Translations under genes and position numbers: made by a program
In this document: positions 7,351 through 10,575 of the stretch, piece after piece
How positions within the stretch are numbered: position 1 is the stretch's first letter
How the letters are laid out: every line of letters begins with the position of its first letter
NCBI RefSeq assembly: GCF_024508235.1
Contig: NZ_CP101943.1
Span: 1,488,001-1,552,000, forward strand
Direction: 5' to 3'
Source: Halococcus qingdaonensis
GTDB taxonomy: Archaea > Halobacteriota > Halobacteria > Halobacteriales > Halococcaceae
DNA length: 64,000 nucleotides
The notes under the pieces: model-generated
Databases searched by the model: none
What the model was told of the DNA's origin: nothing
Seen by the model: the letters and a program-made list of their open reading frames with translations, nothing else

Positions 7351-7887
7351 TCAATCCGCTCCGCCTCGGTCGTTCATCGCGTCTTCGAGGACACGCTCGA
7401 CGAACGGATTTTTTCGTTCGGTGTACGTCTCCCGGTCGTCCGGATGTTTTTCCGCCAATTCCCGCTTCAGCGATTCGTACTCCGCCGCAATGTCGGCATT
7501 CTCGCAGAGGGAGTCTCGGAACGCGAGTGTTTCGGCATAGAAATCGCTGTCCCGCTCGGTGAGCGAGAGGTAATGCGTGCGGTTCGAGCGCGGCCCCTTC
7601 GCCAAGAACAGTCGTCCTTGAACATCGCCCGGTCGATGCTCATAGCCGTGCTCTTCGAGGAGCGGAACGAGCGACTCGCGGGCAGCGGAGAGATCGTCGA
7701 GCACAGCTAGCAGGTCGATGACGGGTTTCGCGGCAATCCCCTCGATGGCGGTGCTACCGACGTGTTCGTAGCCGTGGAGTCGATCGCCGGTGCTGGATTC
7801 GAGTCGGTCGACTTTAGTTTCGTACTCTCGTTTCCACTTCGGTTGGTGGGAAACGAGCGTGACGTTGCCGCGCTCCAGACCAATCAT
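7351..7887 (-). CDS. GrpB family (UPF0157) nucleotidyltransferase-fold protein, start displaced by IS
   Basis: 178 residues from ATG 7887. The sequence GYEHVGSTAIEGIAAKPVIDLL is the GrpB hallmark (helical nucleotidyltransferase-like fold, GS motif and Asp), with a further RTHYLSL match. Biochemical role is unknown; some relatives are fused to dephospho-CoA kinase. The start codon lies inside the 5-bp target duplication (7883-7887) of the insertion sequence, so the gene body is intact but everything upstream is now IS DNA. The open frame continuing upstream to 8043 is therefore not native. The transposase reads in the same direction, so read-through could still express it. Confidence 0.8.
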   Translation of the reverse strand: MIGLERGNVTLVSHQPKWKREYETKVDRLESSTGDRLHGYEHVGSTAIEGIAAKPVIDLLAVLDDLSAARESLVPLLEEHGYEHRPGDVQGRLFLAKGPRSNRTHYLSLTERDSDFYAETLAFRDSLCENADIAAEYESLKRELAEKHPDDRETYTERKNPFVERVLEDAMNDRGGAD

Positions 7888-7903
7888 CAGTACCTCGCAA
7901 AGC
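7888..7903 (+). repeat. IS terminal inverted repeat, left
   Basis: CAGTACCTCGCAAAGC, the exact reverse complement of bases 9271-9286. Confidence 0.95.
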
Positions 7904-8072
7904 TCGTCGGCTGACTGCTTCTGAGATGTGAGTTCGATGGAAAATCGGTGCCGAGCAACTGCTGGGAAAGACGATTCGGCATGGAGAGCATCGAGCCTGT
8001 CGCAGTCGGCGGCGGAACGCCGCCGACGCGACAGCGTTGCCACTCGACAAGCGGGCGGTCCTGATCGGTGGA

Positions 8073-9239
8073 TCAGCGCTCGAAGCGCTCGTCAGGTGGC
8101 TTATTCGCGGGGACGGCCCGACGCACGTCGAGGGCCGTCCACGCTGCCCGCGTCACCATGCGGATGAACTCCTCGAACGACCATTCCCATAGGCGACGCC
8201 CGCCACGGCGGGGCGTCGCCACGTACTCCCAGTGCAAATACCGCCAGGCGTTCTGGAAGAGCAGACTGATCACGACGAACAGCAGCCGTTGCGTCGGATC
8301 AGTCGTTGTCGTCGAAATCGTTGTCTTCTCCGCGAGGCGGTAGCTCGATTCGATGCCGAACCGACGGCTGTAGTAGGTCCGCGCCTGTGAGGGCGTCTCG
8401 ATGAACGGCGCGTCCACGGCGTAGCCGTGACGCGCCACGCCGTGCTCGTCGTATCGCCCGTTCTGGTACGTACAGTCGATGTAGACAGGAAATTCGACGG
8501 TCCACTCGTGACCGTCGAATCCCGTTTCGAGGTCGTGAGTGATGGTCCGACTCCACCCCTGACGAAGCTCCGTCTTGATCGCCGCTCCCCACTTGATGAT
8601 CGGAACGACGTAGGCGTAGTTGTGCGCGTGCAGCAGCGTGAGACACTTGCCGTCGTAGAACTCTGAATCGAGATAGACAGCCTTGACCTCGAGGTCAAGG
8701 CCTTCGAGAAGACCGAGGAACTCCGCGAGGACACTGCTGGCGGTGTCGCCGTCTTCGAGACGGCGCACCGCCAGCGTGTAGCGTTTGTTTCGTACGCGCG
8801 CGTAGAGAGTAGCGTAGGCGTGGAACGCGGTCGTGCCACGTTTGGCTTCGGAGTGATAGAGGCCCTCGGTTTCGTCTTCATCACCGTAGTAGGGCCGCAG
8901 GTGGAGGTCAGCGACGACCTCCACCTGCTCGGGAAGAAGTTCGAGCACGTCGCGTTGGAGCAGGAGATTACCGACGGAAGCGACGCCGTCGAGATTGAAC
9001 TTCGTACGGAGGTGATGGAGGACGTTAGTGCCAGAGGGAGCGTCTTCGCTATGCTTGCAGAGCGAAGAGATGGAGGTCCCGTCGGCGCACGCGCCGACGA
9101 GGACTTCGAAGATGTCGTCAGGGTCGATTTCAGCGTTCTCGCCGAGGGTGAGGGAGAACGTGCCAGTGAGAGTGTTGACGAGGAAATTAAGGAGCTGGTC
9201 CTCGTGGATTTCGTCGTCTGCTTGCTGTTTTGTGGTCAC
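8073..9239 (-). CDS. ISH3-family transposase
   Basis: 388 residues, GTG start at 9239. The N terminus (DEIHEDQLLNFLVN, then DDIFEVLVGACADGTSISSL) is characteristic of ISH3 transposases. The DDE catalytic centre is suggested by VVADLHLRPYYGD (first Asp), KAVYLDSEFYDG (second Asp) and RFGIESSYRLAEKT (Glu in the YxxRxxIE-like segment). Full length with no frameshift, so probably functional. The 185 bases between its stop and the left terminal repeat are non-coding. Confidence 0.92.
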   Translation of the reverse strand: MTTKQQADDEIHEDQLLNFLVNTLTGTFSLTLGENAEIDPDDIFEVLVGACADGTSISSLCKHSEDAPSGTNVLHHLRTKFNLDGVASVGNLLLQRDVLELLPEQVEVVADLHLRPYYGDEDETEGLYHSEAKRGTTAFHAYATLYARVRNKRYTLAVRRLEDGDTASSVLAEFLGLLEGLDLEVKAVYLDSEFYDGKCLTLLHAHNYAYVVPIIKWGAAIKTELRQGWSRTITHDLETGFDGHEWTVEFPVYIDCTYQNGRYDEHGVARHGYAVDAPFIETPSQARTYYSRRFGIESSYRLAEKTTISTTTTDPTQRLLFVVISLLFQNAWRYLHWEYVATPRRGGRRLWEWSFEEFIRMVTRAAWTALDVRRAVPANKPPDERFER

Positions 9240-9270
9240 ATCTCCAGCAAGCAGACGTCGCCACTAACCG

Positions 9271-9286
9271 GCTTTGCGAGGTACTG
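9271..9286 (-). repeat. IS terminal inverted repeat, right
   Basis: Exact reverse complement of bases 7888-7903. It is followed at once by the right copy of the ATCAT target duplication (9287-9291). Confidence 0.95.
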
Positions 9287-9313
9287 ATCATGTGTTCCAG
9301 AGCGCGAGAACGG

Positions 9314-9320
9314 AAATAAG
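9314..9320 (-). promoter_or_regulatory. orphaned TATA box of the GrpB gene
   Basis: On the minus strand CTTATTT lies 23-29 bases before the ATG held in the right target-duplication copy (9289-9291). Before the insertion this would have been the leaderless promoter of the GrpB gene. It now faces into the IS and would drive only a 34-codon frame ending at 9187. Confidence 0.55.
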
Positions 9321-9381: not shown

Positions 9382-10575
9382 ATGTCCATGGCTGCCTTCG
9401 AGACCGACGTACACGAGATGATCCGGGAGGCGACGCGGGAGATCGCCGCCGAGTACGACGCCGAATACTGGCGCGAGTGCGTCAACGAGAAACAGTTTCC
9501 CGAGGAATACTGGCAGGACCTCGCGGACAACGGCTGGCTCGGCGTCGCCATCCCCGAGGAGTACGGTGGGGAAGGGATGGGGATGCTCGAAATGGCGATC
9601 GTCATCGAGGAGCTCTCGCGCGGCGGCGGACAGGGCGGGATTATTTTCGTCCTCACACCCGTGTTCGGCGGCGTCGGCATCGAACGCCACGGTACCGAGG
9701 CCCAGAAGGAGGAGTATCTCCCGAAGATCGCGGACGGCGACATGCGCTTCTGCATGGGACTGACCGAACCGCGTGCAGGCACGAACACGCTCAACATCGA
9801 CACCGAGGCCGAACGCGTTGATCGTGCCGGCGGGCACGCGGGCGACGAGTTCGTGCTCTCGGGCCAGAAGACGTTCATCAGCGGCGTCGAGAACGCCGAC
9901 GAGATGCTACTCGTCGCGCGCACGTCCGAACTCGATCCCTCGAACCCCACCCACGGGGTCACGATGTTCCTCGTCCCGGAACCGGCCGATCAGGACGGGA
10001 TCTCGCTGACGCCCGTGGAGACCACGGTGCCGTGGTTCGAGACCCAGTACCAGGTCGACATCGACGGACTGCGCGTCCACGAGGACCGTATCCTCGGGGC
10101 CGAGGACGGTGGGCTCTACCTCCTGTTCGATACCCTTAACACCGAGCGCATCGGCGGCGCGGCGAGCGCTCTCGGAGGCGGACTGCGCGCGATCGATCTC
10201 GCGGTCGAGTACGCCAACGACCGTGATGTGTTCGGCCAGCCGATCGGGAGCCATCAGGCCATCCAGCACCCGCTGGCCGAGCACTACGCCAAACTCACCG
10301 CCGCCCAGCAGCTCACCTACGATGCCGCCGCCAAGTGGGACGACGGCGAGGACTGCGGCATGGAGGCCAACGCGGCCAAACTGCTGACGAGCGAGTTCGC
10401 CACCGAGGCAGCCTCACAGGCGATCCAGACCCACGGCGGCAACGGGTTCACGCCCGAGTACGAGGTCTACGACCTCTGGCAGAACTCCCGGCTCACCCAG
10501 ACCGCGCCCGTCTCGAACGAGATGGCGAAGAACTTCATCGCTGAGCACCATCTCGGCCTACCTCGGTCGTACTGA
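9382..10575 (+). CDS. acyl-CoA dehydrogenase family protein
   Basis: 397 residues from ATG 9382 (a second ATG follows two codons later). Family features are complete: GWLGVAIPEEYGGEGMG, FCMGLTEPRAGTN, FVLSGQKTFISG, ALGGGLRAIDLAVEYANDR and QTHGGNGFTPEYEV. One oddity: where most family members have the catalytic Glu in IYEGTSEIQ, this protein has TQTAPVSNEM, so the base is absent at that place. Some subgroups carry it elsewhere, so activity is not excluded. It would oxidise an acyl-CoA with FAD and pass electrons to ETF. It lies next to the IS. Confidence 0.88.
   Translation: MSMAAFETDVHEMIREATREIAAEYDAEYWRECVNEKQFPEEYWQDLADNGWLGVAIPEEYGGEGMGMLEMAIVIEELSRGGGQGGIIFVLTPVFGGVGIERHGTEAQKEEYLPKIADGDMRFCMGLTEPRAGTNTLNIDTEAERVDRAGGHAGDEFVLSGQKTFISGVENADEMLLVARTSELDPSNPTHGVTMFLVPEPADQDGISLTPVETTVPWFETQYQVDIDGLRVHEDRILGAEDGGLYLLFDTLNTERIGGAASALGGGLRAIDLAVEYANDRDVFGQPIGSHQAIQHPLAEHYAKLTAAQQLTYDAAAKWDDGEDCGMEANAAKLLTSEFATEAASQAIQTHGGNGFTPEYEVYDLWQNSRLTQTAPVSNEMAKNFIAEHHLGLPRSY

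Follow-up and report, generated by a model that had tools for sequence, protein, structure and literature searches.

The window analysed here is a 64,000-nucleotide stretch of Halococcus qingdaonensis DNA, in which an ISH27-like insertion sequence has inserted at the start codon of grpB. The features of this locus are as follows.

7351–7887, minus strand: grpB, 178 amino acids, intact, with its start displaced from its upstream region (Pfam PF04229; start matched in four relatives)
7883–7887: left copy of the target duplication ATCAT, on the minus strand ATGAT, the grpB start
7888–9286, minus strand: ISH27-like insertion sequence of the ISH3 family, 1399 bp, recognised by its terminal repeats and target duplication, NF033541, and DNA copies elsewhere
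7888–7903: left terminal inverted repeat CAGTACCTCGCAAAGC, as read in the sequence
8073–9239, minus strand: ISH3-family transposase, 388 amino acids with a GTG start, from NF033541 and the alignment of relatives
9271–9286: right terminal inverted repeat GCTTTGCGAGGTACTG, matching the left end at 16 of 16 positions
9287–9291: right copy of the target duplication ATCAT, with a minus-strand ATG at 9291
9314–9319, minus strand: TATA-like box TTATTT, the putative original grpB promoter, with identical spacing in the empty ortholog (L006)

The window element is an ordinary member of the ISH3 family. Elements of this family are about 1.2–1.5 kb long, and the one described here has 1399 bp, perfectly matched 16-bp ends, a 5-bp ATCAT duplication, and a transposase (9239–8073 on the minus strand) that scores 349.9 bits against the curated ISH3-family HMM NF033541, for which the cut-off is 225. 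An earlier, sequence-only reading had claimed an element of ISH3 type, flanked by an ATCAT duplication and with ends identical over 16 bp, and the HMM match, the 16/16 ends, and the duplicated bases at 7883–7887 and 9287–9291 bear this out; its range of 7883–9320 takes in the element together with the duplications and the TATA-like box. Residues D111, D191, and E297 of the transposase are unchanged in all 12 aligned transposases and presumably form the catalytic acidic triad. The E of ISH3-family transposases belongs to a motif Y-(2)-R-(3)-E-(6)-K; here Y290, R293, and E297 are unchanged in 12/12, and no K further along is invariant. The closest named comparisons are ISH27 and ISH3B of Halobacterium salinarum, which share with the window element the family HMM, 16-bp ends, 5-bp duplication, length, and a hairpin at the start codon described below (the ISH27-3 transposase is 75.5% identical to that of the window), but differ from it in species and insertion site. 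The source genome (G000; one contig, 2.70 Mb) has a second copy elsewhere with 82% DNA identity, and its relative G003 has a copy at another locus with 97% DNA identity to the window's. We also note a third copy in the source genome at G000:C1:127082-131021, broken into two halves (L003 and L004) with an ISH3-type transposase gene at 128733–129611 between them, an element nested inside an element.

The minus strand from 7887 begins ATGATTGGTCTG and codes for a GrpB protein of 178 amino acids, of which residues 9–168 match profile positions 2–158 of 159 in PF04229 (E 4e-42), and therefore the whole domain of the GrpB / UPF0157 family. The duplicated ATCAT, read on the minus strand as ATGAT, constitutes bases 1–5 of grpB, and both target copies carry an ATG on that strand, at 7887 and at 9291, as had been proposed. 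The box TTATTT (9319–9314) lies 23–28 bases upstream of the right-hand ATG, from which 34 codons can now be read to a stop at 9187. A GrpB match is present in seven of the ten genomes from the genus, and only in G003 does grpB adjoin the same acyl-CoA dehydrogenase gene; the G003 protein is 84% identical to the one here. That locus (L006) is unoccupied, with a single ATGAT, a GrpB start at that very ATG, and GCGGCTTATTT equally far upstream. In G004, G005, and G008, which represent three more species of the genus, grpB is in a different context, and GrpB starts at the same residue. The sequence-only reading, which had called for a search for such an unoccupied locus, is corroborated by G003 in its claims that the insertion is exactly on the grpB start codon and that a promoter-like box has been split from its gene, box and gene being together in the empty locus; the transposase is also directed toward grpB as claimed, both being on the minus strand. 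A GrpB start far upstream of the ATG in an uninterrupted relative had been named as grounds for rejecting that reading, and is not what we find, because G003 is empty and starts at ATGAT, and the GrpB starts of G003, G004, G005, and G008 agree. G003 is probably Halococcus morrhuae; the flanks of the element copies in G003 and G009 match records named H. morrhuae and H. thailandensis. The element would have transposed after the split of this lineage from G003, into an ANNNT target provided by the ATGAT of grpB. The same comparison touches the neighbouring gene: the acyl-CoA dehydrogenase start (window 9382–9390) reads MSMAAF here and VCMAAF at the unoccupied locus, which makes the second methionine a candidate for the true start.

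We have surveyed 99 distinct insertion sites, 68 of which have identical 5-bp duplications. ANNNT is found in 65 of these 68, and at the 31 sites without identical duplications ANNNT is the left flank 27 times and the right flank 28 times; the end-finding for 87 of the loci gave no bonus for flanks, and one further end-finding run slightly favoured ANNNT flanks. Two duplications that depart from this pattern, GGTTT at L142 and AGAAC at L143, show that the outer A and T belong to the target and not to the element, and they rule out a 3-bp duplication with T/A-tipped ends. An ATG occurs in just one of the 68 identical duplications, the window's own, and CAT in one other (L077); the window's is also the only one of the 68 that contains the start ATG of a gene. 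It could be argued that ISH3 elements seek start codons or promoters and that the grpB ATG was targeted, as the ANNNT target is AT-rich and would favour intergenic DNA, and ATG or CAT is present in 2/68 identical duplications. We regard this as very improbable and have set it aside on the counts: a convincing gene start lies in the window's duplication alone (1/68), and there are weak candidates at 6/198 element ends, two of which are in the window itself. With a single instance in 68, the start-codon hit probably needs no special targeting and looks like chance. Taken alone, the insertion is an unremarkable IS event, instructive for where it landed.

The right-hand part of the element, into which the promoter-like box points, contains two further features.

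9212–9260, minus strand: start-codon hairpin, arms 9260–9245 and 9227–9212, with the GTG (9239–9237) in the loop
9187–9291, minus strand: 34-codon frame made by the insertion, which begins at the host ATG, crosses the hairpin, and ends beyond the transposase start

In the window, CGTCTGCTTGCTG pairs with CAGCAAGCAGACG around the transposase GTG, with a fold z of -4.1. A scan of a collection gave 80 relatives, and these together with seven earlier loci (87 loci) left 86 with terminal inverted repeats, 81 with CAG ends, 80 with a start (L135 being lost), and 40 non-redundant ISH27-like elements. The transposase start is inside a helix in all 40, and an in-frame stop lies shortly upstream, at 6 or 24–27 bases (21 in L144). 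An enclosing helix of at least 9 net pairs is present in 40/40 of these elements, as compared to 11/96 other annotated starts on pNRC100. This test replaced a criterion of enclosure in the MFE structure by at least 11 pairs, which all 40 pass, because 41/96 other pNRC100 genes passed it too. Two of the 11 pNRC100 genes that pass the helix test are the transposases of ISH28 and ISH10, which may mean that start-masking extends beyond ISH3; the enclosing helix has 12 pairs at the ISH28 start (IS5; L192:34534-35361) and 10 pairs at the ISH10 start (IS66; L193:13252-14667).

Elements with CGGTAGTTCCC, CGGTACTTCCC, or CGGTAGTTCCCATCGG ends have the same hairpin layout with different arms; these form two divergent branches, with transposases about 25–29% identical to the window's where aligned. 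In branch C (L053, L054) the hairpin is upstream of the start, and the start is outside it; this long hairpin, about 55–87 bases in from the end of the element, closely precedes the start codon. In L075, L126, and L129 some 50 additional bases set the hairpin further from the left terminal repeat, and the hairpin stays at the start codon. All eight full ISH3 copies on pNRC100 have both arms, one of them without a loop base, and the loop GTG is also the start annotated for ISH3B. A covariance model run on the source genome gave 8/8 same-strand matches at E < 1e-3 that are ISH3 starts, and a ninth match on the opposite strand of the window's own hairpin. The strongest non-ISH3 match of model R1 (L202) lies inside a pilin-like reading frame and looks like chance, and nine Rfam matches are all under their gathering scores. 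In the literature consulted, which is mostly open-access, neither a start-codon hairpin in ISH3 elements nor a role for one is described.

Several lines of evidence suggest that the pairing is genuine. In an alignment of 51 rows (39 and 12; L144 was left out beforehand), 93.7% of cells are paired and 7/11 pairs have changes on both sides; covariation is 0.291 against a shuffled mean of 0.084, with none of 500 shuffles reaching it, and when the arms are slid as a control pairing falls to 27–45%. With phylogeny controlled on a tree from which L120 was left out, pair 16-53 has six independent tree pairs, of which a mean of 5.8 change in the same direction and none in the opposite one (p 0.03); the other pairs have too few events for this test. 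In the coding arm, the glutamine codon is CAA in 37/37 cases, as compared to 109/336 elsewhere in the same genes, and the alanine codon is GCA or GCG in 37/37 (n is 37 because the motif is absent in 3/40 elements); judged by its codons, the coding arm shows constraint beyond that of the protein. The trait of start-masking, a fold around the transposase start in externally initiated RNA, is here both predicted and conserved.

The inverted repeat might instead act in DNA, as a palindromic site near the transposase promoter for the transposase, an autorepressor, or a host factor, with the start overlap being incidental. The repeat is subterminal and most copies have perfect Watson-Crick arms; moreover, over nine pairs G.U cells (4) do not outnumber A.C cells (7), which fails to discriminate between RNA and DNA as the acting form. 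We nonetheless consider a DNA site somewhat unlikely, because in L075, L126, and L129 the repeat keeps its place relative to the start codon rather than to the end of the element, because the start is inside the repeat in two divergent branches that have different arm sequences, and because pairing is kept although these sequences differ. A second alternative is that the hairpin is mainly a site of RNA processing or a landing site for SmAP1 that shortens the life of the transposase mRNA, and not a mask. For the ISH3 gene VNG_0112H, a processing site, SmAP1 sites, and a pile-up of ribosomes are all reported at the 5′ end (PMC10134880), but processing alone leaves the start-in-loop position in 40 ISH27-like copies unexplained, and we think it improbable.

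The reading we favour is one of masking. The hairpin, which the sequence-only reading had passed over, is directly relevant to the fate of transcripts that enter the element from a host promoter. In the window the former grpB promoter would now transcribe into the element in the direction of the transposase, and in the resulting RNA the transposase GTG should sit in the loop of the conserved hairpin, where ribosomes are predicted not to start. RNA whose 5′ end lies at the GTG or immediately upstream of it would be without the 5′ arm, with its start open. The predicted cost of opening the GTG region in host-driven RNA is 19.6 kcal/mol (10.2 +/- 3.6 for shuffles, 2/200 being as high), and 2.7–4.0 kcal/mol in RNA that starts at the GTG or five bases earlier. 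The hairpin would therefore most likely silence the transposase under host read-in, with only its own leaderless or near-leaderless mRNA, from a presumed internal promoter, being translated, and the model predicts a leaderless-only mode of expression for the transposase; we recognised no convincing TATA box about 27 bases upstream of the GTG. We lean on balance toward this whole account, in which the element landed by chance on the grpB start, the hairpin masks the GTG in host-driven RNA, and grpB is probably expressed weakly through read-through. Because the 34-codon frame of the host ATG crosses the hairpin, ribosomes might melt the hairpin in the window copy; this frame is a peculiarity of the window insertion.

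There are some informative parallels among bacterial elements. In IS10 and IS50 the transposase start is covered by a structure that only externally initiated RNA forms; the masked SD and start lie downstream of internal promoters that have been mapped. The ISH3 hairpin resembles these in that a structure in outside-derived RNA is predicted to cover the transposase start. The bacterial elements mask an SD, however, whereas in the haloarchaeal element an SD is not needed, leaderless initiation is common, and the internal promoter is only inferred. ISPpu9 of Pseudomonas putida likewise has a structure in the transposase 5′ region, reported to lower translation (an effect that is predicted for ISH3), and weakening it raised a reporter 26-fold; as described there, it differs in being bacterial, in that an antisense sRNA opens the structure, and in that a ribosome-binding site is masked in a long 5′-UTR (PMC8450116). 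Structures that mask start codons are reported to regulate translation in Haloferax, and the theophylline riboswitch of Haloferax volcanii shows that AUG masking lowers translation in a haloarchaeon, although that system is synthetic and ligand-controlled (PMC8241225).

Published observations on Halobacterium are pertinent to this interpretation. Three ISH3/ISH27 transposase genes are reported to undergo translational repression of more than twofold in stationary phase of H. salinarum (PMC3225822); a second report describes mobilome mRNA as abundant with few proteins, and a pile-up of ribosomes at the 5′ end of the ISH3 transposase mRNA VNG_0112H (PMC10134880). The start hairpin may explain the repression of the ISH3/ISH27 transposases, offering a concrete cis-element for why they are transcribed yet translationally repressed (PMC3225822; PMC10134880). 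It also bears on why SmAP1 helps rather than hinders ISH3 transposition, as ISH3 and IS4 transpositions are reported to be fewer without SmAP1, a result that the authors call counterintuitive and in connection with which they mention hairpin melting (PMC10134880). A broader reading would be that in most haloarchaeal ISH3 elements a covarying hairpin at the start codon serves as a leader sensor, so that RNA from host promoters is folded and untranslated while their own leaderless mRNA, lacking the 5′ arm, is translated, that SmAP1 opens the hairpin, and that the window copy was perhaps accidentally unlocked by the added leaderless frame, along which ribosomes would cross the hairpin. We find this rather doubtful; if true, the opening of the hairpin by SmAP1 would explain the lower ISH3 transposition upon SmAP1 loss. 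ISH8 (IS4) elements have enclosing helices of only 5–6 bp, and yet IS4 transposition drops without SmAP1, so the SmAP1 effect need not use such hairpins.

Under the masking account, grpB is without its own putative leaderless start and would probably be expressed weakly, via read-through only, a dependence on the IS that the sequence-only reading had put forward as a possibility. The gene is separated from the transposase by one further feature.

7997–8034, minus strand: GC-rich hairpin CTGTCGC..GCGACAG, 3′ of the transposase stop, conserved in ISH27-like copies

This strong hairpin is kept in most ISH27-like copies, and other ISH3 branches have different hairpins or none after the transposase stop; covariation is uninformative here because the arms hardly vary. 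A more generous view of the fate of grpB is that it is kept on by transposase read-through and re-initiation at its ATG, aided by a GAGG that resembles an SD in the terminal repeat, 5 bases upstream of the grpB ATG (junction GCGAGGTACTG|ATG). The two genes are in the same orientation, we found no T-rich hairpin terminator between them, and grpB is intact, with no decay seen relative to the empty G003 ortholog (dN/dS 0.25; 7 amino-acid changes on each branch), although this lack of decay says little because a recent insertion would leave no trace anyway. Against it, the GC hairpin intervenes, and the predicted fold of read-through RNA covers the grpB start, at an opening cost of 17.9 kcal/mol, although 18/200 shuffles are as high. 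Haloferax volcanii is also reported, in an account concerned with 5′-UTRs, to make no use of SD motifs there (PMC3986360), and as a counterpoint SD spacing and core do matter according to another report (PMC8241225). We view sustained expression of this kind as a tentative possibility. Finally, the grpB frame (window 7351–8043, minus strand) is open into the element as far as a GTG at 8043, so that translation beginning inside the element could add 52 residues in frame to the N-terminus.
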